This document shows positions 2,027 to 31,320 of a DNA stretch of 38,968 bases, piece by piece (position 1 is the first letter of the stretch; each line of letters starts with the position of its first letter). This stretch comes from Mycoplasmataceae bacterium. Its GTDB lineage: Bacteria > Bacillota_I > Bacilli_A > Mycoplasmatales > Mycoplasmoidaceae. A model generated the notes under the pieces. It saw only the letters and a list, made by a program, of their open reading frames with translations, was not told the DNA's origin and did no database searches. The DNA lies in contig JAIRME010000011.1 in the NCBI GenBank assembly GCA_031258945.1, positions 1-38,968 of the forward strand. The letters run 5' to 3'. The position numbers and the translations under genes are program-made.

Positions 2027-3943
2027 ATGGTCAATTATAAAAAAACCAAAAAATTAGTTAAAGTAATTTTAAATGAATTAAATCAACAACCGTCTACTTT
2101 AGAAGCTTTGAAACAAATTACTTTAAAATATTTCGCAAAAAATATTTTTACAGTATATGAACTTAATAATCAAATAAAAACAGTAACTTATGAGCAAATG
2201 TTTGAACAAGCCAATATTGTACGAAATAATCTTTTGGTTAAGTATTCTCACGAAAGTGGGGTAATTGTGTTGCAAATGGATAATTCGCCTAACTGATATA
2301 TTGCATTTTGAGGAATTGTTTCAGCAGGATTTAAACCAATTTTAGTTGATCCTAAAATCAACATATTAAATCAAATTTTACAAAATCTTAATATCATCAC
2401 TACTATAACCGATAGTAATATTCAAGATTTTTTGTTGAACAAAAATAATCAACCAACAATATCTTATGCCGAAGAAATTGCTTTTTTGTCTTCAGGAACA
2501 ACTGGTACCCCTAAAATTATTTCTTATAATGCATCCTCTCTAAAGGCACAAATTGGAGTTGCTTCCAATATTTTAAAAAAAAATAAAACTATCCGATTAG
2601 GTAATAAATTAACAGATGCTAATAAAATAAGAATATTAGCTTTCTTACCATTTTTTCATATCTTTGGATTTATGGTGATTGTTGTTTGGTTTAGTTTTTT
2701 TGGACGTACCATTATTTTTTTAAAGAGTTTATCCAGTAAGGATATTCAATTAATTTGCCAAAAATATCATGTAACACATTTTTTTGCTGTTCCCCTAGTA
2801 TGGGAAAATATTGTTAATGCTATATTTAATGAAGCAAAGAAACTAAATAAAATGCATCAATTGCAAAAAGCAATCAAATTAAGTAATTTTCTACAAAACA
2901 TTTCTCCAACAATCGGAATAAAAATAGCACGTTCTTTCTTGTTTGGAAAAGTGCGGAAAAGAGTATTGGGGAATAGTTTACAATTTTGTATTTCGGGCGG
3001 AGCACAAATTAATAAAAAATATTTGCAATGTTTAAATGGAATTGGCTATTCTATTCACAATGGATACGGTTTGACGGAAAGTGGAATAGTGTCTGTTGAG
3101 TTGTCTAAATATGCGAGATATCGTAATCGTGAGACTGTTGGCAAACCTTTTAACATCGTACAATGAAAAATCACTCCGCAAAATGAATTACAAATCAAGG
3201 GTCCTTTGCTTTTTCAAAGCACATTATTACACGGTAAATTAATAATCAATAATCAAAATGAATGGTATTCTACTAATGATATTATTAAAATAAAAAAGAA
3301 GCGTATACAAGTTGTGGGTAGGCTAGACGATGCAATTATTGGTGGAGATGGTGAAAATGTTCACCCTGAAGAGCTAGAAAATTTAATAAATATTGATAAT
3401 AGATATACTTGTGGAATTTTAGGAATTAAACAACGCTCCGGTTGTCATCAAATTAATTTATTAGTTTATTTCAAAGAACATTTACCATCTACAGAACAAT
3501 TAAATTTAATTGAAAAAATTCACAAAATAGTTGAAACTATTCCAATCTATAAAAGACCAATTAAGTTTTATGCTACGGATCAATTGCCTCTGACTAACTT
3601 GGGTAAAGTAAAACATAAACAATTATTATTAATGTATCAAAACCATGAATTAAAATTGGTACCGTTGACTAAAAATATCGAAAGCGATTTAGAAATTATT
3701 AAAAATGATTATGTTAAAAAATTGTTGGATGATGTACGTCAATGCTTTGCCAAAATATTTAATGTAAATGTAAACACAATTTATGACAACACTAATTTCA
3801 TGACTGACTTGGGTGGCAGTAGCATAGATTATTATGGCTTATTAAATGAGATTACTCAAATTAGTAAAAAAGAAATTAAGTTGGTGGGTAATAAAGCTTT
3901 ATTAACCCCATTAGATTTTGTTATTTATATTCTGAATAATTAG
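2027..3943 (+). CDS. Acyl-AMP ligase with C-terminal acyl-carrier domain
   Basis: A 638-residue fusion, continuous when TGA is read as Trp (2294, 2312, 3164). Residues 1 to about 520 form an ANL-superfamily adenylating enzyme. It has the P-loop SSGTTGTPK (155-163), the NGYGLTESG motif, a WYSTND segment near 413, GRLDDAIIGG (431-440), and NLGKVKHK near the end of the domain, which carries the expected catalytic lysine. Residues of about 560-638 form a carrier domain with DLGGSSIDY, in which Ser599 aligns with the phosphopantetheine serine of ACP. The enzyme would activate a carboxylic acid as the adenylate and load it onto its own carrier. The fatty-acid substrate is inferred from the two PlsC-type neighbours. 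It is the first gene of an eight-gene operon. The start is ATG 2027, with no Shine-Dalgarno. Confidence 0.88.
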
Positions 3944-3958
3944 GTTATTATTAAAGTC

Positions 3959-5374
3959 ATGAATAAACTTGGCAAACGTCGTGAACCACTATTTGCTTTA
4001 GCTGCGTTGGGTCCAAATTTTTTAAACTTATTTTTTACGATTTATATTCAAAATGCTTTATTAGGTAAACTAAATGTCGGTTTTGATCCAAATGATACTT
4101 CACGTGTGATTGTTTCTATTAGCATTTTCACAGTTTTATTCACTATTACTAAAGTAGTAGATGCTTTATTAAATATTCCAATGGCTCATTTATCAGACCG
4201 CACCAAAAGCAGATGAGGACGACGTCGACCATGTATTTTACTTGGAATGGTAGGGTTAATTTTGACCTATTTGGCTTTATGTAATCCAATTTCTTTAGCT
4301 GAAGGTAGTATATCTAATGTCGTTTATTTCTTTTTTATTCTGTTGATTTATTTTACAAGTTATTGTTTGTGTCTTGAATCGTTTTATGCATCATTCCCTG
4401 AAATTACTTATGATGTACAGGCTAGAATTAGGTTGACTAATTGAAAAGCTTTTTATGACACAATTAGTTATTCAATCGGTTATGCATTACTACCAGTTAT
4501 TTTAGGCTTTTTAACAGGTGTGAGTATGCGCTGAATCGGTATGAGCATTACTCCGTTGATGTTAACAATGCTAATTCCGTTGTTTCTAATTAAAGAACCA
4601 GCATCATACATTATTTCTTATCAAAATCATAAAAAGACCAAAATAAATTCTAAGCAGGTGCAAGAAAATGAAAATGTTGGTTTTTGAGAATCAATTAAGA
4701 TTACTTTGGGTAATCGTCCTTTTTTGGTTTGAGTTTTGATTTTTGCATTGTTTTATTTTGGTCTAGATTTATTTTTGCAATCACAAATACCGTTAGCACA
4801 ACAATCGATGGGTTTGAATAGTTGGCAAACAACGGTGATTAATACAGCCTCTTTTGCCCCTATACCTTTAATGTTATTTATTAATAAAAAAATTATGAAT
4901 AAATGAGGTTTTAAAGTTTCCTTTATGTTAGCTATTTTGTCATTTATCATTGCAATGTCAACATTTATGATAGCCTATAAAAATTGGATTAACTCACAAT
5001 ACATAATTTTAATAGTTGCTGCCATAGGTTCAAGTATCGGTAGTTTTGGTTTAACTACTTTTTTCTCTGCACCATATTTAATTCCTTCACAAATGGCAAA
5101 AGAACAGACTGATAAAAACAATAAAGCTAATCAAGCTATGTTTTTTGGCATACAAGGTATCGTGGTAGCCTTATCGAATGCTTTAAATGAACCAGTGTGA
5201 ATTAATGTATCTCAAATTGGCGGGAAAGAACATCCAGAATATGGCCCACATATTACTACATATATTGTAATTGGTATTTGTACACTGGCATTAATTGCGG
5301 CTTGCTTTATGCCAAAACATTTTAAATATATAGGTAAAAAAAGTGCGATAGATACTTATGCAGAAACTAAATAA
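3959..5374 (+). CDS. GPH-family (MFS_2) cation symporter-like transporter
   Basis: A 471-residue integral membrane protein with about 12 hydrophobic segments, in one frame with many TGA-Trp codons. The cytosolic loop between helices 2 and 3 reads HLSDRTKSRWGRRRP, which matches the D-x-(S/T)-x-x-(K/R)WGRRRP signature of the glycoside-pentoside-hexuronide (GPH) family. That family includes bacterial sugar symporters, and the same MFS_2 fold is used by the animal lysophospholipid carrier MFSD2A. The gene starts 15 bases after the ligase-carrier gene, and its end overlaps the first acyltransferase by 17 bases, so it belongs to the operon. In this context a lysolipid, fatty acid or glycolipid precursor is as plausible as a sugar. 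The family is strong, the substrate is open. Confidence 0.82.
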
Positions 5375-6026
5375 TGTTTATCACGAGAAATGATATCGAA
5401 ATTTATTCCGTTGATTTATGAAAATAACTGGTTGATTCCCTTCGTGAATTCTTTTCAAACCAAAATATTATTATGAAAATAGAAAAATTCAAAAACGTTG
5501 AATTAAAGATAATGCAATTATTGCTAGCAATCATCGCACTACTTTAGATCCGTTTTTATTAATGTTTGTTTTCACAACTCGTTATTTACATTGCATTGTG
5601 GGTGAATTTATTTATGAAAACATTCCCTTTGTAGGTACGATACTTGATTTATTTGGTTCTATTAAAGTAGAACGCTTTACTGCGAATCCTGATTATTTAA
5701 ACGTTTGTAACAACATTCTAAGCAGTGGAGGTATCATTCAAATCTATCCAGAGAGTCATTTGCCTAAACCTAATCAAACAGAGTTATCTCCTTTTAAATC
5801 ATCGGTAATTTTAATGTCTATCCAAACGCGTTCTCCCATTATCCCTATTTACCATTGTGGCAATTATGGTTTATTCAAACGCGAAAAAATCGTTATTGGT
5901 GTACCGATGCACTTATATGAAAATTGTCAACAAATTAATCCAACTGTGGAAAAATTAAAAAAATTCACTAAAATCTTAGAAGACAAAATTAATCAATTAA
6001 AGTTGATGGTGTCACATGATAGATAG
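5358..6026 (+). CDS. PlsC-type 1-acylglycerol-3-phosphate acyltransferase-like protein
   Basis: A 222-residue acyltransferase of the LPLAT/PlsC superfamily. Block I is SNHRTTLDPF, with the catalytic dyad His59 and Asp64 in the NHX4D pattern. Block II is GSIKVERF, with an arginine expected to bind acceptor phosphate (Arg106). Block III is IYPESH (129-134) in place of the usual FPEG. ATG 5358 lies inside the end of the transporter gene and gives the typical N-terminus MQKLNNVYHEKWYRNLFRWF, with aromatic and basic residues. Later ATGs (5418, 5562) would cut off this region or the catalytic block. The enzyme should transfer an acyl chain from a carrier or CoA donor to a lysolipid at the membrane. 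The acceptor is unknown. Confidence 0.85.
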
Positions 6027-6660
6027 GAAAAATAAGCGTTTTTATTGATTACTACACTTATGTAAGGTTTTAGCATGGCCATCATGATGAATTATTTATC
6101 ATCGTAGATATCATTACATGCCTAATGCTTTTAGGCGTGCCAAAATTAAAGGACCAGGTATTGTGATTTGTAATCATAATCACTGAATTGAACCACCGTT
6201 AATTGCTTATACATTTCCCTTTCGTACAATCGTTTTTATTATTTCTAATGTCCTGTCAACAAATTGATTTGGAAAATGGTTTTTCAATCAAATTGGCACA
6301 GTTGTTATTAATAAAAAAGAATTTGAATGAAATAATTTTAAAAAAATTATTACAATGTTGAAACAGGGAAAATTAGTGTTAATCTTTCCGGAAGGAATTA
6401 TGAATAAAAGCGAACAATTAGTCGATTTTAAAGAAGGTTTGGTAACAATTGCTCATTTAGCTAATGTTCCAATTTATCCTATTTATATCGCTAATAAACA
6501 TAAACCGTTACGTCTCCAACATATCATGTTAGGAGAGACAATTAATTTGAACCAAAAATATCAACAACTTAACACACAAACATGTAGTGCCATGACTAAA
6601 TTATTATGAGAATATATTAATATTATGAAACATCAATTGGAAAGTGAACTACATAGATAA
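6016..6660 (+). CDS. Second PlsC-type acyltransferase, variant HX4E block
   Basis: A 214-residue member of the LPLAT/PlsC superfamily. The start ATG 6016 overlaps the end of the previous acyltransferase by 11 bases, indicating translational coupling. Block I reads CNHNHWIEP, so the dyad is His54 and Glu59 instead of the usual His and Asp. Block III is a canonical FPEG (124-127). The arginine normally present in block II is missing (IGTVVINK). An aromatic N-terminal segment (FYWLLHLCKVLAWPSWWIIY) is probably membrane-associated. Two adjacent acyltransferases with different signatures suggest different positions or acceptors, as with PlsB/PlsY and PlsC roles. Whether the Glu variant is catalytically competent is untested. 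Confidence 0.82.
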
Positions 6661-6662
6661 CA

Positions 6663-8156
6663 ATGGGAATCTCTAAACTAGGTTATCGAAAATATTGAAC
6701 TGAACCAATGCCACAAAGTGAAATAGATTGATTGGAAGCTAATGGACACATCAATACCATTAATCAATTGTTAAATTTTATTGATAAATATGGTAAGAAA
6801 ATTGCTATTAGTAGTGTTCAAATACAGAAAACATATCACGAATTATTACAAGATGTTGGGAAAGCCAGAAATTATTTATCAAAAAATGGAATTAAAAAAG
6901 GGAATTTGGTAGGAGTGCAAATGGACAATGAATATCTATTTATTGTAATATTTTTGGCAATAACTACTATTGGTGCTATAGCTAATGTTTTTCCGGTACA
7001 AATGCCTAATCAATTAGTAAAAAATATTTATCAAAAACATAAACTTAAATTGTTAATTTATAGTAAACGATTAGCAGAAACGTATACTAATTTTGCTTTA
7101 AATATTATTTCAGCTAACGATGTAACTGACATTCAACCCACTCTATCAGTTGAGGTTCAGGCAAATGACTTGGCGGCATTATATTTTACTGGTGGCACGA
7201 TAGGGAAACCTAAAGCAGTTATGTTAACACATAAAAATTTGATGCGTGGGATGACAAACGGAGCATATGGCTTTAGTAAAATTCTGCATCTTAAATATTT
7301 AACGATTATTCCATTTTTTCATGTATTTGGTTTGGTACGAAGTATGTTAACTCCTTTATACACGGGAAGCGAAAATTACCTTTGCACAGATTTTAATAGT
7401 TTTTTGCCAAATTTAAAGATTACTAATCCTAATTTAATATGCATTACTCCAGCAATGTTGGAGATGGTTTGTTTTTTTGGACAACAAGATATGAACTTAA
7501 TAGGTAATAATTTAAAAACGATCGTAGTCGGGGGAGCTAATGTTCCGTCAAATTTGCTTTCACAAGCAAATACATTGGGTATTTATACGTGTCAAGGATA
7601 TGGGTTAACTGAAACAGCTAATTTAGTTTCTGGCAATCGTTTTCCAAAGAAAAATCCCAATTCGGTTGGTGAAATATTTGACTTTCAAGAGATTAAAATA
7701 GTTAACCGAGAATTATGAATTAGCGGTGAAAATATTTCCCCTGGGTACTTCCAAGATACATTATCTAATATATTATCCTTTGAAAAAAAATGATTTAAAA
7801 CCGGTGATTTAGTATCCTATAAAAATAATCAACTTTATATCATCGGTCGTCTAAAAAATTTAATTATTTTGAAAAGTGGAGAAAAATTTTCTCCCGAGGA
7901 AATTGAATCTAAAATGAATAATTTTTCATTAATAAAAGATAGCTTAGTTTATTTGAAGAATGATCAAATCATTCTTGAAGTTTATCCGCGTGATGTCAAA
8001 AATATTATGAGCACACAAATACGCGACTACAAAATTAAAATGTTTTTTCAAAAAATAAATAACAGTTTACCCACATTTATGAATGTGAATGAATTAATCA
8101 TTCGTACACATGATTTCGAGCGATCACCGGCAATGAAAGTATTGCGCATACAATAA
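6663..8156 (+). CDS. Second acyl-AMP ligase (ANL superfamily), stand-alone
   Basis: A 497-residue adenylate-forming enzyme without a fused carrier. It carries TGGTIGKPK (176-184) as P-loop, GYGLTETA, WFKTGD, IIGRLKNLI followed by GEKFSPEEIE, and a C-terminal SPAMKVLR whose lysine fits the catalytic A10 position. Family members make acyl-AMP and pass the acyl group to CoA or to a carrier protein. It starts at ATG 6663, two bases after the second acyltransferase, and is followed 32 bases later by a free carrier protein, its likely partner. That makes it a probable acyl-ACP synthetase, reminiscent of the ligase half of Aas. Substrate chain length cannot be read from the sequence. Confidence 0.87.
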
Positions 8157-8188
8157 TTTTGTAATATATTTAGCTAGCACATAACACT

Positions 8189-8440
8189 ATGATAGAGGAA
8201 TTGGTTAAGATATTCAAAAAGGTAATGCCTGATAATAGAATGAACTATGGAATAATTAATGAAAATAGCAAATTATTCAATGATATTTGCCCCAATAGTA
8301 GTTCATTAATTATGGTTGCTTTTGCAATTGAAAAACAATATCATATTTCCTTACCTGGTTATTTGGAGATTCGTAAAGCTACAGTAGGAGATATCATTAA
8401 AATAATTCGGATAGAATTGTCCAAACAAAAAGATGCTTAA
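8189..8440 (+). CDS. Acyl carrier protein-like, atypical NSS site
   Basis: An 83-residue protein of carrier-protein size and helical pattern. Aligned by eye with E. coli ACP, DICPNS (32-37) matches DLGADS, and the following helix SLIMVAFAIEKQY matches helix II. Ser37 is therefore the expected phosphopantetheine site, but the invariant DSL is NSS here. Unlike classical ACP it is not strongly acidic and ends in a basic helix. It sits between an acyl-AMP ligase and an Sfp-type transferase and overlaps the latter by eight bases. The odd site may make it a dedicated carrier recognised by the neighbouring transferase and not by AcpS. An inactive carrier fold is the alternative. Confidence 0.75.
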   Translation: MIEELVKIFKKVMPDNRMNYGIINENSKLFNDICPNSSSLIMVAFAIEKQYHISLPGYLEIRKATVGDIIKIIRIELSKQKDA

Positions 8441-9035
8441 AATTTACATTGCTAAAATACCAACAAAAATTATTAAACGCAAGATACCCACTTCTCTTCT
8501 AAACGAGATTAACCAATACATGCATCCACAAGCGCGCCTACAAAAAAATGCTTCGTACTTGTTATTAAATATTGTTTTGAATACACATCACATATGAAAC
8601 AAGGATATTAGTGTTAACGAATATGGTAAACCTTCGTTAATTGGTAATCAAATCTATTTTAATTTATCCCATAGTGGTGAATACATAGTCTGTGCAGTTG
8701 CCAATAATCCAATTGGAGTTGATATCGAGTTTACTAATTCTCACATTAAAAGCATTTCTAGCGCCTTTCTAACAAAAAATGAAGTACAAACATACATTTC
8801 CTTATCTAATCAAAAACTAACGCAAATATGGGCAATAAAAGAAGCGATTGTTAAATTATTAGGTGTTGGATTGAGTAAAAAACTAAGCACTATATCGCTT
8901 GCATCTTTAAAAATTAACAATAAACGTTTGTACACGTTTAAGAAAACATTTCGTGCCTACCATCACTTGCAATTTGCTCTCGCTAGTTATGTTCAACTTC
9001 CCAAGAAAATTAACCTTATAAAAGTAAAACTATAA
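8433..9035 (+). CDS. Sfp-type 4'-phosphopantetheinyl transferase
   Basis: A 200-residue protein, intact when one TGA is read as Trp. It shows the Sfp/Gsp/HetI signatures in order: YGKP (64-67), FNLSHSG (77-82), GVDIE with metal-binding Asp97 and Glu99, and WAIKEAIVKLLG (133-144) with Glu137. The enzyme moves the phosphopantetheine arm of CoA onto a carrier serine. It is the last gene of the operon, and its ATG overlaps the carrier gene's stop region. The operon encodes two carrier domains, its obvious substrates. Mollicutes usually rely on the small AcpS-type enzyme, so a dedicated Sfp-type one is notable. Family identification is strong; carrier specificity is inferred from context. Confidence 0.9.
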
Positions 9036-9046
9036 AAGCAACATAG

Positions 9047-9766
9047 TTATACTTTTAAAATTTTGTTTTGATTATTGTAAATTAAAAAATATGCAACATC
9101 GTTAATAATAAGATCAATTAATTTACCAACATCGGTAATATTTTTATTCCAGTCTGTATTGTTTTGTTTGCTATGAAAAATAGAATCACTAACCACTTTG
9201 ATAATAGCGCATGAAATTTTATTTTTTGAGCAAGTTTGAATAACAGCAGCGCTTTCCATATCAACTGCTACTGCTTTTTCATCAAAATTAAATTTATTGA
9301 TATTTTTTTGATTGATAAATGTATCACCACTTACTAACTTTCCGTGTGAAAGTGAATTAGGGTATAACTTGATAATATCTAATATTTTTTCATTTAATTC
9401 TCTAGTTGTTAGAAAATCAATTGGTTGTTTAGGAACTTGATTTAACCCATAACCAAAAGCAGTAACATCTACATCATAATAACCAACAATGTTAGGAATA
9501 ACGATATCATTAACTTTTAAGTTCGCTACCAAACTACCACAGGAACCTACATTAATGACAATGTTAGTTTTAAAACAATCAATTAAAATTTGGGTTGCCG
9601 TTGCGGCGTTAACTTTACCGACCCCACTATATATTAAACAAGCATAATCATCAAGAAATTTGAGAATGTAAACTTCATGATTATTGACTACACTAGTATG
9701 AACATAAGTCATTTTTTTAAGTAAAGTTGGCGTTTCACTAGACAATGCTATAACAAAACCGATCAT
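9047..9766 (-). CDS. mtnN: 5'-methylthioadenosine/S-adenosylhomocysteine nucleosidase
   Basis: A 239-residue nucleoside phosphorylase-fold enzyme that splits MTA or SAH into adenine and thioribose derivatives, clearing by-products of SAM use. Diagnostic segments are the start MIGFVIALSSE, YSGVGKVNAA, NVGSCGSL, SGDTFI, and AVDMESAAV, whose glutamates contact the ribose. A C-terminal VVSDS contains the catalytic Asp that protonates adenine. No TGA is used. It starts six bases after the NadD-YqeK gene and is cotranscribed with it. Its stop lies 11 bases from the stop of the convergent transferase gene, and no terminator hairpin is visible between them. Confidence 0.93.
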   Translation of the reverse strand: MIGFVIALSSETPTLLKKMTYVHTSVVNNHEVYILKFLDDYACLIYSGVGKVNAATATQILIDCFKTNIVINVGSCGSLVANLKVNDIVIPNIVGYYDVDVTAFGYGLNQVPKQPIDFLTTRELNEKILDIIKLYPNSLSHGKLVSGDTFINQKNINKFNFDEKAVAVDMESAAVIQTCSKNKISCAIIKVVSDSIFHSKQNNTDWNKNITDVGKLIDLIINDVAYFLIYNNQNKILKV

Positions 9767-9772
9767 CGTTTA

Positions 9773-10810
9773 CTAATTATAATGAGCATACATTTCTTTC
9801 AATAGTTTAGTGAAAGCAACTTTAAGATTTTTTTTAGCAAGTTCAACATAATCTTCGCGATTTGTTACATCTTCATTTGTACGATTTGGTTCTAGTTTAT
9901 CAGCACAATAAAGAATCATATCTAATTTCGATGGTTTTGAACTAGGGATAACATGATTAGCGATCGCATTTAAAATCTCCTTATCTTTGATATTAAAAAA
10001 TTTTTTGGCATACACAGCACTTGCCACGCCATGTAGTGTATGAATAGTAGGATATTTGTTTTTGTTTCATTTTGGGGCTAGTTTTTTAATTTGTGCATCA
10101 GACATTTCTTTGCTAATATCATGGTACATGGCTGCAATGTAAGCTTTTAGTCCTAGCAATGGTGAAATTTGTCGACCAATTTGAATAGCTAATTTTGCAA
10201 CTCTAATTGTATGTTGAAAACGTTTTAGTGACATTAATGGTTGTACTTGATTGATGGTATACAAACCAAATGTAGCAATGTACAATGCTACAATTGGGGT
10301 AAGAAATTTAACTTGTGGTAATTTTCGTAAAGCACTACTACAAGTAGGTACAAGTTTAATATTAACAAAATCGGCTGGAATATCCTTTTTAAACTTTTGA
10401 TTATTACGTTTAACAACAACTAAACGAGCAAGTTTCAAAATAGTTTTCCAATTTTTTCATTTTTTGAAATCTAAGTATCGATCGGTACCGATGATAAAAT
10501 AAAAAGTTGCATGTGGGTAAAGTTTCTTGAAATACTTCAATGTATTAAATGTGTAAGAAATTTCACGATTTTTTTGATTTATTTCATAATCTGAAATTTC
10601 TATATCTTTACAATTACGAAACATTAATCTCAACATCATCATACGATCTTTGCAGTCTGCAAAAGGCAAATGAGTTTTCAATGGAGGATTTTTACTAGGA
10701 ATAATAATAAATTTTTGAAATTGATAATGTTTCTTAATTGTTTTATAAATAGACAAATGACCAGTGTGAACTGGATCAAAAACACCACCAAACAATATAA
10801 TAGTTGACAT
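9773..10810 (-). CDS. nadD: NadD-YqeK fusion: nicotinate-nucleotide adenylyltransferase + HD hydrolase
   Basis: A 345-residue two-domain protein, continuous through TGA-Trp codons at 10457 and 10067. Residues 1 to about 165 are NadD: GGVFDPVHTGH (8-18) binds ATP, IIGTDRYLDF and PTCSSALR follow, the last matching the ISSTxIR block. It joins NaMN and ATP to form NaAD in NAD synthesis. The rest is a YqeK-type HD domain with RFQHTIRVA, MYHDISKE, HTLHG and CADKLEPNR as metal ligands; YqeK proteins hydrolyse Ap4A. Separate nadD and yqeK genes are neighbours in Bacillus, and the fusion is known in other mycoplasmas. The promoter TATAAT (10817-10822) is only six bases before ATG 10810, so the mRNA may be leaderless. 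Confidence 0.9.
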
Positions 10811-18061: not shown

Positions 18062-20089
18062 CTAATATGCAACAATGATTTGTTTCATATATGAGGTGAT
18101 ACTGCCTGTATTGTCAATCACATCAGCTTTTAAAGTAAAGCTATAATTACCAATAATTAGTGAACTAGTGCTAGGGAAACGCACTAAACATGTCCCTCGT
18201 GTAGTGCCAGTAGTTTGGTTATCATCAATTCTTAAATTCGAGCCAAATATTGGATCTGGGTCTACAATACTTCAAGTAATATTTTTAGTAATAGAATTCC
18301 AATTAATGTCATCCATGAAATATTCAGTATTATTACCATCAGAAAAATCAATGTTAGCTGGTTCAATTAAGTTGGGGCCAAAAATATGATCGTCTTTTTG
18401 CGTTAAAAACGGTAAAATAGAATTACTATTTTCAATATCTGTTCCAATTTGATAAACTTTATTTATGTGTTGTTCATAAGAAATAATTGAATTGAGGTTC
18501 CATGTTTTCTCAGCAAAAGTTGCAATACTTTTGAAAGTACCTTGATAAACTAAATCTTGTGTTTGTCTAGTGTAATAATCGCATCAAATGCAATAATAAG
18601 CTCCTTTATAAAAAGGTAAATATGCTTTTGGTAAATCAGCAATAGTTTGCGAAAATTTATAGAGATTTCAATCATTGAATATTTGATTAGGTTCTGGCTT
18701 TTGCATACCAGCACTTAAAACATAATACAAATAATCGTCGTTAAGATTGTACAAATGATATCCATTAGCAGCAAGTTGATTAATTGTCGCATATTTACCG
18801 GATGATGAATTAGTTCAATAAGCTACTTGAATATTTTTATCAGGTAATATTGTGGGAGTAATGTTACTTCAATCATAAAGAAATTGATCATTAAATGCTC
18901 TTACTTGGTGGTAACCTTTTTCTACAAGTAAGTTATAAATTTCGTTCATTCAATCGTTCAATGTATCAAAACCTGTAGCATTTATGGCAGGAACATCTAG
19001 AACGTCAATGGCATACTGTTTTAAAGTATTGCTATAACCAATAGATGTAGTTGAATCCATCCTTTCATATGGGATAAATTCATCAAATCCAATATTAAAT
19101 TTGCGACAACCAAGATCGTGAAAAAATTGACTATATTCGATATACAAGTTTTTTATATAGGACCTTGCATTATTATTAGTGATATCAATCGCAGCAGGAT
19201 AATCAACACTACTACCAGCATTATTTTTCAAAGTAATATCTTCACCTTCGTGGTTGTTAGAATATCATTCAATGATTCATCGAGCATGTCCAGGCATATC
19301 AAGTGAAGGGATAATTTCAATTTGATGTATTTGTGCAAAACGAACAATATCCATCATTTCTTCTGCACTAATAAATCTTTGATCAAAACCAGCTCTTGCT
19401 CCAGCCAAATTGAAAAATTGATTTCCTTCTGGTAATTGTAAACGCATACAACTCAATTCAGAAAAATGTAATTCTATAGTGTTAATTTTTTTGTAAGCAG
19501 CTTCTACAATTAAATTTTTGACTCACTTTGGGGTAAAATATTTACGCCCACAGTCTAAGTGAATAGTGCGTTCTGCAATATCGGGATAATCCAATATATC
19601 GCCGTAATAAATTTTGTTATCGCTAATTTTATAAATTTGCATTAAAGTATTAAAGGCATATAAAACACCTCTTAAACCATTAGCGTTGATAATAATTTTG
19701 GAAGAAATATTGATGGCGTAAGTATCAGGTAAAGAAGAAGCATTAACTAAATCATTTGCTACATTAACCCGAATACTATGATCTATCACAGAGGAATCAT
19801 TAACTAGTTGAATTTTGCCAAATGTTATTCCGGCATCCATTAATCGTTGCTGAATCAAATACAGTAAATCAGTCAATCCGGATATTTTAGCATCGTAAAA
19901 AATTTTTGAATTAATTGCAAAATTAAATGAATTAGCGGAAATATTTTTATATTCTTTAACAGTTGGTAATAGTTGTTTTTGAATATTTTTGTAATCAAAG
20001 TTAGCACAAGAAGTGAGAGTACCAATGCTTCCTCCAATAATTGTAGTGATTACAGAAGAGTTAATTATTAATGATTTAATTTTTTTCAT
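18062..20089 (-). CDS. Surface lipoprotein, GH20 family beta-N-acetylhexosaminidase
   Basis: A 675-residue lipoprotein. The signal sequence ends in LTSC (Cys28). Residues of about 40-150 resemble the GH20 N-terminal accessory domain. The TIM barrel starts near HLDCGRKYF and includes IIPSLDMPGHARW. The catalytic Asp336-Glu337 pair lies in NIGFDEF, matching the GH20 substrate-assisted Asp-Glu pair. The last 110 residues or so look like an Ig-like beta domain. GH20 enzymes remove terminal GlcNAc or GalNAc from glycans. It is last in the murQ operon, ten bases after the GHL10 gene. It may replace the NagZ-type enzyme found beside murQ in other Firmicutes, with chitin or host glycans as alternative substrates. 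Confidence 0.87.
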
Positions 20090-20099
20090 TTTTCAATTC

Positions 20100-22097
20100 C
20101 TATAATTTTGTTGTAATTTTTAATATATGTTGATTAGCTTGATTGCTAACTTGGTTGGCTAATGAATTTGCATATGTTTGATTACGATAAGTTAAATTAT
20201 GATTTAAATCAGTAATGCTAAAAAAGATGCTCCCTTCATAAGCAATATTACTTGTAGCATATTGGATACAATGTAATATCTCTTCAGCATTACCAAATGA
20301 TGACAAATTGTATAAGTATTCATTATTTGCATAATTAAAATCAGATGCTTCCATATAACGATAATTGGGGTGGCCAATATAAAGTTTGGTTCTACTACCA
20401 CTTTGTAATTTAACATTTGCTCATCAATCAAACAGTTCAACAAATGGTCCGCTTTTATATTGCGCATTTCAATACAATTGGGGGCAAATGTAATCCAATC
20501 ACTCTTCTTCTATTCATTTTTTTGAATCGTAAAATTCATCATGAAAAGTGCTCATAGAAGTGGTTGGTGTATTAGAACCATCGGGGGTATCAGTAAACTT
20601 ATTACTAGATCAAATACCACCAGGACTAATACCAAAAACTACATTACGATTAGGATTGTTGGTATTAAAATCATTTATAGTGTCATGAATTGCTTGTATT
20701 AAATCATCATTATTTTTACGCCTTCAATCATCAATTGTTAAGCCACTACCATATTTATTATACGAAGCTTGATCTAATGGTTCGCCATATTGACCCATGA
20801 AATTTTTAAAACTGATATTTTGTATATTATCATTTTGCAACTTTCAATCACCATTTTCATCTAATTGAATGTTATTATTCTCATCCCGCGTATAATTGTT
20901 ACGTCATGAAGTGGCATATGGATAAAAATAATCATCTAGATGAATGCCATCAACATCATAATTATTTAAAATTTCCTTAATTGAATCAACCACATAGCTT
21001 CTCACATCTGGTTCGCCAGCATTTAAATATAAAGCACCACCATACTTGTAAACCAAATTTGGGTTAGCAGTTACTCTAGTTTCACCTCCTGGAAGTTGTT
21101 GGAATAGCCAATTTAAAACATTAGGATTCGTAGTATTATTTTTTGCTAATTGCCCTTGTTCGTTTAACTTATCAGTAAAGTTGTCAAAATTTAAATAATC
21201 ATATCAACTCATGTTACGACCATTAGAATCAACAGCATAATCTATACTAGAAACACGATAAGGGTTTAATCAAGCATGATATTTTACACCTGCTTCGTGA
21301 GTTTTACTAACCATATATTGTAACGGATCAAAACTTTGCAATCAGTCAAGGGTATAACCTTGCGAACCAACGAGATATGTGGAATATGGGTTGATTGAAG
21401 ATTTATAAAAAGCATCCATCATTGGGCGTATTTGAAAAATGACAGTATTCATTGAATAATCAATATATGTTTGTAAAAAATTATCATACTCTTTTACAAA
21501 TTGTTCTTTAGTTAAATTATGCAAATTAGTAGATTGAATCGGGGTATTTCAGCCTTCGGCATGTGTGTAGTTGTACAAAAAATTCATATTTCTGACTGTG
21601 GCAGTTCACGTAGATTTCATGTATTCAGGATGTTGAATAATCAAATCATCAGGAAACAATGCTAATGCGGTATCGTTACCATTGATTTTGACATAGGCAT
21701 CAGTGTAAATTTGATCAATATTATCGAAAATACGTTGATGATGTAGTGCGATTGGTTCAATGTTTATATTTAAAATATTACTAATTGCTACATCTTCATT
21801 AAAAACTTGTAATTTTACTTTTTTATGGGTTTTGCTAATGTTTTTTAAATAAAAATTAAATTGATTATTTTTTGGATCATAAGTTGATGTTATTATGTCT
21901 TCGTGCGAACTGACTAAATGAATATTTGAATATTTAGTCGTATTACCACTAACTTTGACAGCGTTGTTTTGATTAGGATAAGATATGGTTTGGTTTGGTA
22001 CGACAATGCTTAATGGAAAAACGGAAGTGCAATTAGTCACAATTGGAGCGGTTATTGGAGCGATAGAAATAGGAAGAATAAATTTTGCTTTTTTCAT
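20100..22097 (-). CDS. Surface lipoprotein, glycosyl hydrolase-like 10 (YngK/DUF187-type)
   Basis: A 665-residue lipoprotein with a signal ending in VTNC (Cys23). A beta-rich, Ig-like segment (about residues 30-125) precedes a TIM-barrel domain of the GHL10 family from about residue 165. Diagnostic blocks are MNTVIFQIRPMMDAFY, HAWLNPYRV, VDGIHLDDYFYP, FGISPGGIW and WLDYICPQLYW; the acidic pair in HLDDY is a likely catalytic or ligand site. Members are predicted glycan hydrolases found in Bacillus and gut bacteria. It starts one base after the serine hydrolase gene in the murQ operon, implying a role in glycan or peptidoglycan breakdown at the cell surface. The exact bond cleaved is unknown. 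Confidence 0.85.
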
Positions 22098-22098
22098 A

Positions 22099-23595
22099 TT
22101 ATTTATCTTTCAAACTATTGCATGCCTCATATACTCAATTACTAATTACCATACCGATGCGGTTAGCACTATCAGTTGTTCCTTTTGGTAAAAAATAACG
22201 ATGTTTACCAAAGAAAATGTTGCCGTTAGAATCATGATCATAAAGTATGGTATGAATGGAATTAGTTAGGATACAAATAGTCAAATGATTAATAGGGTCT
22301 ATTACAGTCATAGTTCCCGTTCACCCATCATGGCCATAAGTTACATTTGGAGCATAATCGCCAAAAATATAATCGTTATAGAAACTGAAGTTCGTTTTTC
22401 ATCCTGTAGCAAATTCAAAACGATTACCCTCCGGATTAACAATAGGTGTGGTTACATCTTGTACTATTTGTTCATTAAAAAAAGTATTGGATCCATACTT
22501 ACCATTATTTAGCATTACATTCATCAAAACGGATAACTCTAAAGCAGTTGAAAATAAGCCAGCATGACCAGAAGCACCTTGCATACAATAAAAAGCCTTT
22601 TCATCATGTACTTCACCTTGGATAGTCTTTGTTCTGCGCATATCGGGGAATGTTGGAACTTGAAATTCTCTTGAATTACCTAATAGTTCTGTGGCAGCAC
22701 AATCATTTTTTGAGAATCCTTTTTGCAAGGGATTAAAAACTGTATGACGCAAACCCAACGGTTGATAGATTTCATTTTCTGTATATTCATCAATTCATTT
22801 ATTAGTAATTGCGTGCACTAAAATATCAACTAACATAAAATCAACATCACTATAAAGTTGCTTAGTGCCAGGAACAGTTTGTAAATCTAACATTAATATT
22901 TTTTCTAATGCTTGATTTTTATCACGTAATAAAAATACATCATCGGTACCACCAGTTAAAAAAACTCGTGGATCAGGAATAAAACCAGAAGTATGGGTTA
23001 AAATTTGGCGAATGGTAATAGTTCCCCATTGCACTGTTTGAGTTTTTTTAGTTAAACTATTAAAAACATTGAATTGTTCTTTTGTAAAATTGGGAATATA
23101 TTTACTAATAGGATCATCTAGTGATTTTATTTTTTTGTCATATAAAAGTTTTTGGATTGCAAACATCCCGGCATACATTTTGGTATTAGAAGCTAAATCA
23201 TAAAGTGTTTCAGTCGTAGCATTCACTTGTTGATCTGTTGGCAATAATTCACCATAATGGGGAATAGGTCATGAGTTGATTTCAATATCACCTCGGGAAT
23301 AAAGTAATGATTTACCAAATGCTTTGTTGTAAACAATTTTGTTGTCTTTTGTGACACAAATTTGCATACTGGGAAAACCATAAGCTTCACTACTGCTACC
23401 ACTAATAGTTTCGGATAATTTAAAATTCACATATTTATTAATTAAATCTAATTTATTTTTATCAAAACCAGCTGCGCTAGGGTTATTAGTGTAATCTTCT
23501 AGCATAAAATTAGAGGAGCAAGAAGTTGTATTAAGTGCGATGCTGCTTGTCAAGACAGAAATACTAGGGATTAAACTAGTTATTTTTTTATTCAT
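22099..23595 (-). CDS. Lipoprotein serine hydrolase of the beta-lactamase/class C PBP family
   Basis: A 498-residue lipoprotein (signal ending TTSC, Cys26) with the serine beta-lactamase fold. SNTK gives the catalytic Ser136 and Lys139, YSD (Tyr248) is the second motif, and a late GHDGW provides an HxG third motif. HTSGF and LGLRHT segments are typical of the esterase/amidase branch. It starts one base after murQ. In the Bacillus murQRP operon a protein of this fold also sits beside murQ and is linked to removing peptides from MurNAc, so an amidase or peptidase acting on imported wall fragments is plausible. Antibiotic hydrolysis is unlikely to matter in a wall-less cell. Function is inferred from context. 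Confidence 0.82.
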
Positions 23596-23596
23596 T

Positions 23597-24511
23597 TTAT
23601 TTTAAACACTCCCTTAGCATACCGCGGTGTTTTTTTAATAGTTGTTTAGCTTGCCCATAGTTCAAATTCTTTTTAATCATAATTACAGCAGGTTTTACTT
23701 GGTTATGAGTAATAGACATAATTTTTTTTATATCCTTATCATTTGCTTTAGTGATTCTTTTAACTAAATTAAATGCACGTGTAACTAATTTGAGATTAGT
23801 TGGTTGTACATCCACCATCAAGTTACTAAAAACTTTACCAATTTTTATCATTGCACCAGTGGATAATGTATTTAAAATCATTTTTTGAGCAGTACCAGAT
23901 TTCATTCTAGTAGAACCAACTATGGTTTCAGGACCAGTGATTGCCTCAATTTTAATTTTGGCTATTTTGCCAATTTCAGAATTATGACTTGTAGCAATAC
24001 TAATAGTTTGACAACCTAATTTATTAGCATAGATTAAACCACTAACAACATATGGTGTTCTACCGCTTGCACTAATACCGACTAACACATCTCTTTTATT
24101 TAATCGAATGTCTTTTAAGTCGTTAATAACTGCTAGTTGATTGTCTTCTGCTCCTTCAATTGGTTTGCGAATCGCTGCATCTCCTCCGGCAATTAATCCA
24201 ATTACTAACTTGTCACTTACTCCATAAGTCGGTGGCATTTCACTAGCATCTAACACACCTAATCTACCGCTTGTACCGGCACCAATATAAATTAATCGTC
24301 CACGATGATTGAAAGCATAAACAATTTTGTCAATAGCAATAGCAATATTTTTTAATTGTGATTTAACTGCTAAAGCTATTGACTGATCTTGTTTGTTGAT
24401 AAGATGCACCAATTGGATAGTTTTTAAAGTATCAATATTTTTAGTTTGATGATTAACACCTTCCGTAGATATATTTGATAAGTCTATATACTTAGAGGTG
24501 AAATTACTCAT
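23597..24511 (-). CDS. murQ: N-acetylmuramic acid 6-phosphate etherase
   Basis: A 304-residue cytosolic SIS-domain enzyme that removes the D-lactyl ether of MurNAc-6-phosphate to give GlcNAc-6-phosphate. It has the family start NISTEGVNHQT, IYIGAGTSGRLGVLDASEMPPTYG, VGISASGRTPYV, and TRMKSGTAQKMILNTLSTG. Length matches the family and no Trp codons are needed. It leads an operon with three secreted hydrolases. A PTS EIIBC gene is encoded just across the divergent promoter. TATAAT lies six bases before the ATG. MurNAc is specific to peptidoglycan, so this gene ties the cluster to wall-fragment use in an organism that should have no wall. Confidence 0.95.
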   Translation of the reverse strand: MSNFTSKYIDLSNISTEGVNHQTKNIDTLKTIQLVHLINKQDQSIALAVKSQLKNIAIAIDKIVYAFNHRGRLIYIGAGTSGRLGVLDASEMPPTYGVSDKLVIGLIAGGDAAIRKPIEGAEDNQLAVINDLKDIRLNKRDVLVGISASGRTPYVVSGLIYANKLGCQTISIATSHNSEIGKIAKIKIEAITGPETIVGSTRMKSGTAQKMILNTLSTGAMIKIGKVFSNLMVDVQPTNLKLVTRAFNLVKRITKANDKDIKKIMSITHNQVKPAVIMIKKNLNYGQAKQLLKKHRGMLRECLK

Positions 24512-24517
24512 TTAATC

Positions 24518-24523
24518 ATTATA
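24518..24523 (-). promoter_or_regulatory. -10 box of the murQ operon, six bases before the ATG
   Basis: A perfect TATAAT on the minus strand, followed by GATTAA and the start codon. The geometry is identical to nadD and mnmA and predicts a leaderless mRNA. Confidence 0.6.
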
Positions 24524-24545
24524 TGTAAATTTTAACTATAAATAG

Positions 24546-24551
24546 TATAGT
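24546..24551 (+). promoter_or_regulatory. -10 box of the small membrane protein/PTS unit
   Basis: TATAGT on the plus strand, then AAAAGGGT and ATG 24560. The eight-base gap leaves at most a base or two of leader. The 48-base divergent spacer with murQ is the place to look for a shared regulator site. Confidence 0.45.
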
Positions 24552-24559
24552 AAAAGGGT

Positions 24560-24811
24560 ATGGAATTTGTGGATCAAAAAAAGCAAAAAGAAGAGATTGG
24601 ACATTGACACATTTTAAATGCTAATCAAAAACGTTTGGTTTACTTAGGTATGATTATTGGAATGTTAATTGCTGTGATAGGCGTTACTTTTCTTTCACTT
24701 GGATATTCAATTATTGTAGGCTGTGTATTGGCAGGTATCGCAGTTTTAGCTTTAATAGCGGTTAGCATTATTTGGTTATTATGAATTCATCGTATTCGTA
24801 AGAAAAATTAA
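24560..24811 (+). CDS. Small two-helix membrane protein, unknown function
   Basis: An 83-residue protein visible only with TGA as Trp (GHWHI, LLWIH). A charged N-terminus (MEFVDQKKQKEE) leads into two hydrophobic helices at about residues 28-50 and 53-75, separated by a Gly/Cys turn (IIVGCVLAG), and ends in HRIRKKN. It is divergent from murQ and 57 bases upstream of the PTS gene, probably cotranscribed with it. No family was recognised; a helper of the permease or a stray small membrane protein are both possible. Confidence 0.65.
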
Positions 24812-24868
24812 ATAGGTTGATGTTTTTACGAAATTTATCGAGTGAGCAAAAAAGGTGGGTGGGGAATC

Positions 24869-26446
24869 ATGACACAAGATTACAATAAAATAGCAAAAGA
24901 TATATTTGATGCAGTTAAGCAGTATGGTATTGTTAGTGCGGATATATGTATGACCAGATTACGTATCAAACTTAAAAATAAAAAAGTAGACTTATCAAAA
25001 TTTAAAAAAATTCCAGGTGTAATGAGTGTCGTAGCAGCCGATGATGAATTTCAATTCGTCATCGGTCCTGGAGTAGTTAAAAAAGTTTATGCTAGTTATA
25101 AACAATTATTAGCAACCGCAGAGATTAAAACAGAATACGGTGCGCCAAGTTTAAAAGAAATAGCTAACCAAGTTAAAAATGAAAATAAAAGTAAAAGACA
25201 GTCAAATTTAGTGGCGATTGCATTAAGCAAATTTGCTAAAATATTTACTCCATTAATTCCTGCTTTTATTGCTGCAGGTATTTTAGCAGGAGTAGCAGGT
25301 ATACTACAATCAATATATACTAGTGTATTAATTGATGGAACGCGAGCGTGAACGAATACCACTGCATATGAATGGTACAATTTATTTAATTTATTGCTTA
25401 CTGCTTGACAGACTGGTTTTTTAATTATTGTTGGTTATCGTTTTTCGGAAGCATTTGGTGGAAACGGTTGAATTGGAGCGTTAATTGGTGCTATTTTTAC
25501 ACCGCTGGCTGGTAGCGCATTTGCAGCTATGTACAACCCTGATGCACAAACATTTTTAGGAATTCATGTATTAAAACAAAATTTAAATACGTTTTGATTA
25601 ACTAGTGGTTTAGTGACTTTAGGTAATGATGGTGTACCGAGTGGAATTGGAACGGCTCATGGCTCTATTTTTGGTATTATTCTTGGTTGTACAATAGCAA
25701 TTTACATAGAAAAATATATTACGAAAGTAATGCCTGTGCAGTTGGATACTGTTATTACACCATTCATGACTGCATTATTCATGGTGTTTATCAATATCTT
25801 TTTAATTATTCCAATTTCTGGATATATGTTTTTCGGTATGACTTGACTATTTAGTCATTTATGTAAAGGCCCAGGAGCACCGTTTGGTGACATGGTGTTA
25901 GCGGCATTATTTCTTATTGCTGTGATGTTTGGAATTCATCAAGGTTTTGTTCCGATGTATGTAGCAATGATTCAAGACCCAAACATTGGGATTAATATAT
26001 TATTTCCTGTGTTAGGATTGGCTGGTGCTAGTCAAGTAGGGTGTGCCCTAGCAATGTGAGCAATAGCTAAGAAAAAAGGGATACTACGAAGACAAATTCA
26101 AGGTGCAATTATTCCAGGTTTTTTAGGTATTGGTGAACCATTGATATATGGTGTTTCATTACCTCGAATTATACCTTTTATATCGGCTTGCATCGGAGCT
26201 GCTATACCAGGATTTTTTGTTGGAGCAATGAATGCTTGGGGTGGCATTGATATGGGATTAAATTCCATTTTTGGCCCAAGCGGTATATTGGCTATTCCAA
26301 TGATTACTAGCGCTAAAGGGATTGGTATGGGAATTTTAGTTTATGTATTAGCTTTATTTATCGGATATGCATCTGGATTCGCGACTGGTTGGCTAGGTTA
26401 TCGTATATTTAAAAACAACCCTAAAATTAATTGAAACTTAGAATAA
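24869..26446 (+). CDS. PTS EIIBC component, MurP/sucrose-trehalose class
   Basis: A 525-residue phosphotransferase permease. The N-terminal EIIB domain has its phospho-cysteine at Cys27 in ADICMTRLR. From about residue 115 an EIIC domain of roughly ten helices follows, with [13 protein letters not shown]-like loops and the hallmark GIGEPLIYG (420-428). No EIIA is fused, as in MurP and SacP, which borrow the glucose EIIA. ATG 24869 is preferred over GTG 24842 because it gives the usual EIIB start [13 protein letters not shown] and has a G-rich stretch upstream. Its position opposite murQ makes MurNAc the likely substrate, with sucrose, trehalose or GlcNAc as alternatives. Confidence 0.85.
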
Positions 26447-26496: not shown

Positions 26497-27729
26497 ATGA
26501 AACGTTGAATCAAAAATACAAGAACGGTTGCCCTATGCTTAATCCCCATAGGTTTAGTGACTGCTTTCTCTAATAGTTGGTCCAATAAAATACCTATTTC
26601 TTGTGTTGGTTCTAGTGGTGTCAAACCATTCGTAGAAAGTCTTTCCAAAGAATACATGAAAGCCAACAAAAAAGTCGATATCACCGTTGAAGCTGGTGGG
26701 AGCGGTTTTGGAATTCAACAAATTTCACAAGGTTTCGCTAACATTGGTAACGCTTCAAAAGATCCTTATAGTGCAGTTTATGGTAAAGATGATAAGGGAA
26801 CTGATGGTTTTAGATCACAATGAGAAAAAAATAAAATTAAAACCATCACAATTGGTTGAGAAGCAATTTGCATGGTTTACATTCCACCTAAAGAATTGAA
26901 TTTAAATCCAGATGAATTAAATAATATTTTAGTAGTCAACAATAGTAATGTGTGTAACTTAATGCGTATATTTAGTGGCATTAATTCAAACGTTACTGAT
27001 GCAACATTAGGGAATTTTTATAATGATCAAGCAGATTTAACTCCGTCTCAACAACAATTATTAATGAACACTAGTATTATTCCATATGTAAGAGCCGGTG
27101 GATCACTAACATCAGGAACTGCTTCATCGTTTGTAGGGGGAACTCATTTAAATTTTAATGAGAAAAATGATTTAACAGTAGCACAACAAAATGCCTTTGA
27201 TAGTGGTTATTATGGAACAAAATTTGGTTTAGTTCAAACTGATGAAGCAAATAGTCGTGCATGGGATATATTTGCTAAAAACAATAAACCTGGACAAATA
27301 GTTTATTTATCTTCAGGTTTTGTTAAACAAAATTTAGATTTAATCAAATCCAAAGGGTATGGTATCATGGCATATGATGGTAGCGAAACTCAAACGAACC
27401 CAACAAGTTTTGATGTCAATTTCATTGATAGTCATGATGGTTACAATTGATTTAGGCCACTTAATTTAATGATTCCTGTTACAAATAACGAATCGTTTAC
27501 TACTGAGATGAATTTTATTAAAACTTTATTATCGGATGAATACAAAAATAAATTAATAGAAATTGGTGCTAAGTATTTAAATACAGAAGAAATTGAACAA
27601 ATATTCCCTAACGATATTTCAGGAATTTGAAAATCCGATTATCAATTAGCAAAAGAAAAGGAAGCAGATTGAAATTGACCAAAAGATTATAATTTTGCTC
27701 CTATCCCATCGGGAATATCTGACAATTAA
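26497..27729 (+). CDS. pstS: Phosphate ABC transporter substrate-binding protein PstS
   Basis: A 410-residue binding protein anchored by one N-terminal hydrophobic segment (residues 10-25). Phosphate-site motifs are VGSSGVKPF near the mature start, EAGGSGFGIQQIS, and RAGGSLTSGTASSF, which supply Ser, Thr and Arg contacts. The cysteine at position 36 falls in the first beta strand, so a lipid anchor there is doubtful. The C-terminal region is in frame through several TGA-Trp codons (for example 27448 and 27628). It captures inorganic phosphate outside the cell and delivers it to PstCA-PstB. It is the first gene of a nine-gene run and is followed one base later by pstCA. Confidence 0.92.
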
Positions 27730-27730
27730 T

Positions 27731-29827
27731 ATGGCAAACGAAATTGTTAGTTTATTAAAAAAGAAACAAAGATCTGACAAGGTTTCTAAAACTGTTTCTT
27801 TGTCTTTGTCTTGGTTGTTTTCACTTGTTTTCTTTTTATTGATTATTTTTATTGTTGTAGCTGCTATTCCTGGTTTTAAAGCTTATGGTCTAAGCATTAT
27901 TAGCAATACATTTGATATGGCTAATAATAAAGCTAGTGTATGATTACCACTTTGTGTTACTTTATTAATTTCTGGATTAGCAATTATCATTGCGGCACCA
28001 GTTGGTGTTAAGACAGCGATGTTTATTAAATATCGATTACCAGTAAAATATCAAAAAGGTACACGAATTGCAATTGAATTATTGGCTGATATTCCTTCAG
28101 TAATTTTTGGTTTATTTGCTTGTGAAATGTTAGGAACTGTCTTGAAATATGTTTTTCATATGCCTACCTCATACAATTTGATTACAACAGGATTCATGCT
28201 AACTTTTATGATTTTACCAACGATTGTATCATTATCTTTAAATTCGTTGGATGGGGTGGATAAAACTTTAATTTCTGCATCTATGGTTTTAGGTAATACT
28301 AAAACTCGTTCTATTTACAAAGTATGCAAGAAGGATGCACGTAATGGAATTGCGGTTGGTGTCATTATTGCTTTTGCTAGAGCCATCGGTGAAACTATGG
28401 CTGTATCCATGATTTTACAATCACAAGGGTATAACCCCATTTTTGATGAAGGGTTTGGTTCTATTGCCACTAGTGGTTTAAGATCATTGGGTGCTTTAAT
28501 TGCCGCAAACATGTTTGCAGAAGGTGGTGGTCCTGCCCTACAATCATTATTATTTGCTTTTGGTTTATTTATGTTTTGTTTCGTTATGATCCTAAATGGA
28601 GTAGCAATGTATGCCACTAAAAAACGTAACAGGAGTAAATGAAAATGATGAAATACATTTGAAAAAAAATTAGGTGGATTCATCACTTTTATACCGATGC
28701 AGTTCAAAATTGGTTGAGAACATTTGACTTTTCAATCAAAGATTGATAAACGAAAAAACCTTTCTAAATATTTGTCAAACCGAATTCAAAAAAATCGTTT
28801 CGTATATGTGTATAGTTTTTATAAATTTTTTTGGGAAATATTCTCCATTACTTTAACAATGAGTTTTTTAGCTTGAATTACGATTGATATTATTGGGTTT
28901 GGGGGTGTAGCTTTGACGCAATCTACTGATAGCGTTTTTACTTTTACCAACAATTCTACTGGCCAAGCTTTTATGAATACAGTTTTGATTATCATAATTG
29001 CAATTGGCATCGGCATGCCACTTTCTTTGATGATAGCGATTTATTTAAACGAATTTGTCAAAGATGGTAAAGTAAAGAAAACCTTATTATTTTTCATTGA
29101 TTCATTGGGAGCGACACCATCTATTTTGTTTGGGATGTTTGGTTTAATCTTTTTTATTCAAACAATAGGTATGTCTGCGGGCGGTACGGCAGGTAAGTCG
29201 ATTTTGGCTGGAGCATTAACTATTTTAATAGTTATTTTACCAGTATTTATTCGCACTATTCAACAAGCATTACAATCAATTCCTAAAGATTTACGTACCA
29301 ATTCTTATGCTTTAGGTGCAGGTAAATGAGAAACAATTCGTAAAATTGTGTTACCAGCAGCACGCCAAGGTATTACCACCGCTATTATTTTATCTATCGG
29401 GCGAATATTAGCAGAGACTGCTCCACTATACTTGACGAGTGGTTTAACCTCTTCTAGTTCTATTTCCTTAGTTAATCCAGGTCAAACTTTAACTACAAGA
29501 ATTTATGCGCAAATTTATACGGCAAATATTCATGATGGCATCAATATTATGTATGAGTGTGCTTTTGTAACCATGATATTGGTATTATTAATTATTCTAG
29601 TTGTACATGTTGTTATTCCAAGTTACTATAAGCATAAACGTCGGCAATTAGAAATCCAAAGTAAAAATATTCGTAAAGAACAAGAAAAGTTTGAGCGTGC
29701 TCATCATTCTTTACAAAAATTATTCACTGTGAACGATATTCTTAAACGTAAAAATTATCATGTGGTTAGAAAAAGAAAACCAGCTAATAAACTGCACCAA
29801 AAAAAAGGTATAAGGAAAAAATCATAA
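27731..29827 (+). CDS. pstCA: Fused phosphate ABC permease PstC-PstA
   Basis: A 698-residue single polypeptide carrying both permease subunits. Residues 1 to about 300 are PstC, with DIPSVIFGLFACE, an EAA-like loop, and FARAIGETMAVSMIL. Residues of about 370-670 are PstA, with DSLGATPSILFGMFG, YALGAGKWETIRKIVLPAA and GRILAETAPLYLTSG. The join is a cytosolic linker read through TGA codons from 28640 (WKWW), with no stop in code 4. A pseudo-dimeric Pst permease is also known from Mycoplasma genitalium relatives. The C-terminus ends in a long basic tail (KRKPANKLHQKKGIRKKS). It forms the phosphate channel energised by PstB. Confidence 0.9.
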
Positions 29828-29860
29828 CTCTTTGAGTTAGTTATAATTAAAAGCAAGTTA

Positions 29861-30838: not shown

Positions 30839-30839
30839 T

Positions 30840-31319: not shown

Positions 31320-31320
31320 T

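Follow-up and report, generated by a model that had tools for sequence, protein, structure and literature searches.

What does a row of genes for acyl-adenylate-forming ligases, carrier proteins and PlsC-type acyltransferases do in a wall-less bacterium that carries genes of the standard phospholipid route elsewhere in its genome? The question was raised by positions 2027-9035 of a 38,968-nucleotide stretch of DNA from a Mycoplasmataceae bacterium (contig JAIRME010000011.1), here called the window, whose genome is referred to as G000. Translated with table 4, this interval contained seven tightly packed genes on the plus strand; the preliminary description had counted eight, a number that holds for the functions and not for the genes, since one carrier forms the C-terminus of the first ligase. 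The row opens with LIGA-CP (2027-3943), an acyl-adenylate-forming ligase (PF00501, 1.5e-34) with a C-terminal carrier domain at about 3731-3940 (PF00550, 2.8e-4). It is followed by a GPH/MFS_2 transporter (3959-5374; PF13347, 2.7e-32), the PlsC-type acyltransferases PLSC1 (5358-6026; PF01553, 8.8e-16) and PLSC2 (6016-6660; PF01553, 4.8e-22), the stand-alone acyl-adenylate-forming ligase LIGB (6663-8156; PF00501, 2.3e-50), the free carrier protein CP2 (8189-8440) and an Sfp-type phosphopantetheinyl transferase (PPTase, 8433-9035; PF01648 (ACPS), 1.9e-13). These family matches, obtained with the table 4 translations, bore out the motifs that had been described for the row. The successive junctions measured +15, -17, -11, +2, +32 and -8 bases; the last five had been given correctly, and the first had been omitted. 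When table 11 was used, TGA codons broke six of the seven genes, the 83-aa carrier being the sole exception.

The promoter scan of the locus gave a shuffle-level signal. Terminator-like sites numbered six where 2.7 were expected, with four lying within the genes and two beyond the row, a pattern that is not informative. On the minus strand, a divergent, weakly DUF4064-like membrane protein (1511-1981) adjoined the locus in four of the five genus copies, its counterpart not being found in copy L054. The other flank, also on the minus strand, is occupied by resident neighbors at 9047-10810, two genes that resemble an MTA/SAH nucleosidase and nadD and were named by sequence reading.

The gene row is a real, conserved, accessory locus and not a chance arrangement, because its gene order is also found in four further species of the genus and, beyond it, in other families of the class. 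A first-ligase search of 60 relatives returned full-length matches (52-60% identity) in four other genus genomes. The locus order was recovered in four of the 35 other genus genomes, with 52-61% identity in the first ligase. What remained were weak matches to LIGB of these loci and, in a genus genome lacking the locus (G021), a lone 434-aa AMP-binding protein (L057:8313-9617). The whole row was kept in all four genomes, in one of them (locus L053 of G024) without an adjoining PPTase. When 320 genomes of the order were searched with a ligase-carrier profile (E ≤ 1e-20), only five genomes, all of this genus, matched. Sampling 392 genomes across the phylum gave 31 more genomes with a profile match, all of them in the same class and nearly all without in-frame TGA, and a second-ligase search of 395 class genomes added further copies of the locus. 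Eleven outside loci, using the standard code and showing variations in gene order, came from three other families of the class. The locus as judged from these searches is class-wide and, within this mollicute order, was found in the genus only; the suggestion that it is a mollicute speciality is not supported, as standard-code families of the class also carry it.

In families f25 and f26 the order was LIGA, in some copies the GPH transporter, PLSC1, PLSC2, LIGB, CP2 and a gene of the LRAT family, with the PPTase next in line in L195 and L196. A shorter form consisting of the PPTase, LIGA, a fused PLSC and the LRAT gene was observed in family f21, and in family f15 LIGA stood alone, the acyltransferases being absent. 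The paired PlsC genes after a carrier-fused LIGA are a class-wide feature of the locus that is present in the window. An LRAT-family gene was found in all 11 outside copies and in two genus copies, where CP2 and the PPTase gene flank it (L055:6531-6953 and L056:10075-10506; PF04970, about 1e-23). It was not found between CP2 and the PPTase in the window or in L054, nor in the G024 locus. By gene content, the window copy can be described as a member of the class-wide locus minus the LRAT gene. The LRAT family includes phospholipid acyltransferases and phospholipases, and its presence hints that phospholipids are deacylated, or acyl groups transferred, in these relatives. In addition, family models placed FakA and FakB next to three outside copies (L166, L169 and L197). 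Searches in other directions gave little: the plasmid-borne relatives were distant ligases only, none covering 80% of the query, and a LIGB scan of named genomes returned only generic ligases of 22-37% identity, with no matching locus in the six neighborhoods examined. PADLOC gave no matches to anti-phage defense systems, and a limited check of the open-access literature found no publication describing the locus.

The supply of acids was addressed by the search for ketoacyl synthases, which were not found in 25 of the 27 genomes tested, G000 included, whereas all 14 control genomes were positive; the two genomes with the enzyme were f21 genomes. As G000 is about 86% complete, a single absence from it is not proof. 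With no such enzyme detected in G000, the bacterium probably scavenges its fatty acids. Elsewhere in G000 we detected two FakB genes, one PlsX, one PlsY, one separate PlsC and an AcpP-like carrier, and since these genes lie apart from the locus, the latter is an addition to the standard route. This agrees with the earlier proposal that the locus exists beside the FakB/PlsX/PlsY/PlsC route.

Both ligases have kept their catalytic lysine. LIGA has the motifs LSSGTTGTPK and YGLTES and the catalytic lysine K527 in its translation, and K527 was invariant in the alignment of 17 orthologues, as was S599, the phosphopantetheine serine of the fused carrier domain (codon 3821-3823); the PF00550 match of this domain was barely above the model cut-off. 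The catalytic lysine of LIGB, K492, was shared by the five genus copies and varied hardly at all among 12 sequences, and the structural model (pLDDT 84) had the fold of an acyl-adenylate ligase. The nature of the acid is less sharply defined: the two proteins scored about equally with many acid-CoA ligase models, all far under cut-off, MenE, DltA and aryl-CoA ligases matched them as well as fatty-acid ligases did, and neither comparison with solved structures nor fold searches separated a fatty from an aromatic acid as the substrate. In the LIGA tree the genus copies formed one clade (100/100 support), which is compatible with both transfer and repeated loss.

For CP2, no carrier model of Pfam was matched by the single protein. 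Nevertheless, a five-sequence CP2 profile matched acyl carrier proteins of the PDB at 1.6e-7, outside orthologues matched PF00550 (PP-binding) at 2e-9 and 2e-10, and the serine S37 (codon 8297-8299) and D32 were invariant in 12 sequences. The preliminary description had taken the operon to be self-contained and separate from AcpS. This could not be upheld: the PPTase encoded by gene 7 was the sole PF01648 match in G000, and of the 36 genus genomes, 25 had an orthologue that the gene 7 profile identified, in about 20 cases without the locus. In G024 the gene order was rplM, rpsI, PPTase, mtnN, nadD, parE, parC, with the locus elsewhere in the genome, and in G033 the locus sits between rpsI and the PPTase (ribosomal and housekeeping gene names in both genomes were taken from reading the sequences). 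Given the sole match in G000, the orthologues in genomes without the locus and the parE-side address in G024, one enzyme probably serves both the locus and the housekeeping AcpP, and would thus be the general PPTase of the cell. In the PPTase tree, genus PPTases from genomes with the locus grouped with those from genomes without it (95/93). The gene may have been a resident one; because some f25, f26 and f21 copies of the locus also carry a PPTase, it is equally possible that the locus was lost and the PPTase kept. In G022, another genome without the locus, a 305-aa frame that contains a carrier domain was observed at a distance of about 1 kb from the PPTase gene (G022:C17:1386-2937).

The two acyltransferases of the row differ from the housekeeping enzyme. 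They formed a separate branch from the housekeeping PlsC (100/100 support), and the PEGTR motif, which most of the genus's housekeeping PlsCs retain, was missing from both. PLSC1 has kept NHxxxxD, and its motif III reads PES/PEG[RHK] in place of PEGTR; PEGR or PEGK occurred in several copies of the cluster PlsCs. In PLSC2, HX4E replaced HX4D in all five genus copies, whereas outside copies have HX4D; the PlsC histidines were conserved across the genus copies. After the generic model, the best NCBIfam match of PLSC2 was the Aas-type PRK08633 (acyl-ACP--phospholipid O-acyltransferase), which scored 68 bits with PLSC2 and 36 bits with PLSC1, the PLSC2 match being far under the whole-protein cut-off.

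The best NCBIfam matches of the transporter were GPH models. In the profile alignment with MelB, whose residue roles, including that of the sugar residue D124, have been described (PMC8329300), D124 was aligned to Leu and D59 to Asn, and D55 was kept. The D55 position was invariant in 11 transporter orthologues, and at the D59 position the genus copies had Asn and the f25 and f26 copies Asp. The structural model was nearest to MelB (Z 33.9) and MFSD2A (Z 31.9); with both among the top matches, the fold search does not single out a substrate. We propose that it could be a lysophospholipid or another polar lipid precursor. Three f26 loci and both f21 loci had no transporter gene.

With moderate confidence, we favor the reading that scavenged fatty acids feed an accessory pathway of lipid acylation. 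In it, LIGA would adenylate a fatty acid and hand the acyl group to its own fused carrier, LIGB would load the free carrier CP2 likewise, and the single PPTase of the genome would activate both carriers. The GPH transporter would import the acceptor, most likely a lysophospholipid or glycerophosphodiester, to which PLSC1 and PLSC2 would transfer the carrier-bound acyl groups, giving a host-derived or remodeled phospholipid made beside the FakAB/PlsX/PlsY/PlsC route. The identity of the acceptor is put forward tentatively; that the locus acylates a lipid or a lipid precursor we regard as likely, and that the ligases act on a fatty acid as quite probable. This reading is supported by the conserved gene order, the carrier serines and ligase lysines, the lack of a detected ketoacyl synthase, and FakA, FakB and LRAT as neighbors; further support comes from the separate PlsC branch without PEGTR, the Aas-type match of PLSC2, and a transporter that lacks D124 and has a MelB/MFSD2A-like fold. 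Generic ligase matches, solved structures that do not tell fatty from aromatic acids, a window without the LRAT gene and the loci in which the transporter is missing count against it. So do the solitary LIGA of f15, and the standing of MelB beside MFSD2A as a top fold match, which leaves a lipid as only one candidate substrate of the transporter. Of the acylation operon proposed initially, the activation of acids on dedicated carriers and two PlsCs unlike the housekeeping enzyme have stood, whereas the fatty-acid substrate and the lipid product are still what we infer.

Two alternatives also end in phospholipid. The locus could accommodate a bacterial Lands-type deacylation-reacylation cycle, in which the LRAT protein removes or shifts an acyl chain of host phospholipid, the transporter imports the lysolipid and the paired PlsCs reacylate it with scavenged fatty acids loaded on the carriers. 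We consider this unlikely; the window's species would have lost the LRAT step or would depend on an outside supply of it. Even less probable is a second route to phosphatidic acid, with PLSC1 acylating glycerol-3-phosphate and PLSC2 lysophosphatidate, using acids that FakAB refuses. Two PlsCs in succession and two carriers would suit such a route, and the standard route coexists with the locus; however, both cluster PlsCs lack PEGTR and fall on a separate branch, and an internal acceptor needs no transporter.

The remaining alternatives lead away from phospholipids or from fatty acids. Because the f15 LIGA stands without acyltransferases, LIGA can serve another purpose, and this observation, together with two different ligases suggestive of two acids and with dedicated carriers and an Sfp-type PPTase typical of such pathways, would be in keeping with a specialized lipid or secreted acylated metabolite. 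Here the PlsCs would join two acids to a small non-phospholipid acceptor, and the transporter would export the product or import the acceptor. Yet neither a ketoacyl synthase in the genome nor a condensation gene among the neighbors examined was detected, the PPTase is probably the general one of the genome, and the FakAB and LRAT neighbors point to bulk lipid chemistry, which makes this explanation as improbable as the phosphatidic-acid route. The equal matches to MenE, DltA, aryl-CoA and fatty-acid ligases would also fit a dlt-like aminoacyl or aryl carrier system that loads a non-fatty acid and passes it to a membrane lipid. We regard this as very unlikely: the seven genes include none of the DltB or DltD type, fatty-acyl transfer is what PlsC enzymes are known to carry out, and FakAB genes adjoin outside copies.

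Compared with characterized systems, the accessory acylation pathway would work most like LplT-Aas of E. coli (fused in PRK08633-type proteins), with which the locus shares the combination of a transporter, a PlsC-type acyltransferase and an acyl-carrier ligase, the PRK08633 scores of the two PlsCs and the PEGR or PEGK motif III of several copies being further points of likeness; in our best reading it is built differently and is not a member. We did not file it as LplT-Aas because the transporter is of the MFS_2/GPH family (PF13347) and not an LplT-type flippase, and because PlsC and ligase are separate genes in every copy having both. Moreover, ligases, dedicated carriers and PlsCs each occur twice in the locus, and relatives add LRAT. 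For the NHX4D motif of LplT-Aas the picture is mixed: PLSC1 has it, and PLSC2 has HX4E in the genus and HX4D in the outside copies. Like the FakAB/PlsX/PlsY/PlsC route, whose FakA and FakB adjoin three outside copies, the locus would use exogenous fatty acids, but with acyl-AMP ligases and carriers and without acyl-phosphate. In contrast to the dlt operon, none of the seven proteins matched the DltB (MBOAT) or DltD families. The comparison with MFSD2A-type lysolipid carriers is mixed as well: the fold matches both MelB and MFSD2A, and of the MelB-type cation site the D55 position is kept, with Asn (genus) or Asp (f25 and f26) at the D59 position; lysolipid transport would be one possibility.

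Each of the two candidate acceptors has a precedent. Mitis-group streptococci make phosphatidylcholine from a host precursor that is scavenged and acylated twice in the GPC pathway, whose transporters and acyltransferases were unidentified when it was described (PMC6805115). The locus was compared with this pathway by its logic, and a choline lipid would be one possible product here. Mycoplasmas deacylate and reacylate phosphatidylcholine (PMC3403081), an activity that would call for a phospholipase together with a system for reacylation; LRAT, ligase and PlsC would fit these roles. As the search of 320 order genomes recovered the locus in this genus only, it cannot explain this activity in other mycoplasmas. 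If the favored reading is true, bacteria without fatty-acid synthesis would have a second, carrier-protein-based use of scavenged acids, common to several families of the class and bearing on how membranes are built or remodeled from outside lipids in reduced genomes. Testable enzymes of this kind would be useful for the gaps in the GPC pathway even if their product differs.

Two other blocks were observed in the window. Family matches at 18062-26446 identified a GH20-like lipoprotein, a GHL10-like lipoprotein, a beta-lactamase-fold serine hydrolase, a SIS-domain protein with a presumed resemblance to MurQ and a PTS EIIC permease, possibly reflecting peptidoglycan-fragment scavenging by a wall-less bacterium. 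A phosphate-uptake-like block at 26497-32360 comprised a binding protein, identified by family match, and a permease, an ATPase and a PhoU-like protein, named by sequence reading, with two small unassigned membrane genes at 30831-31674 within it.
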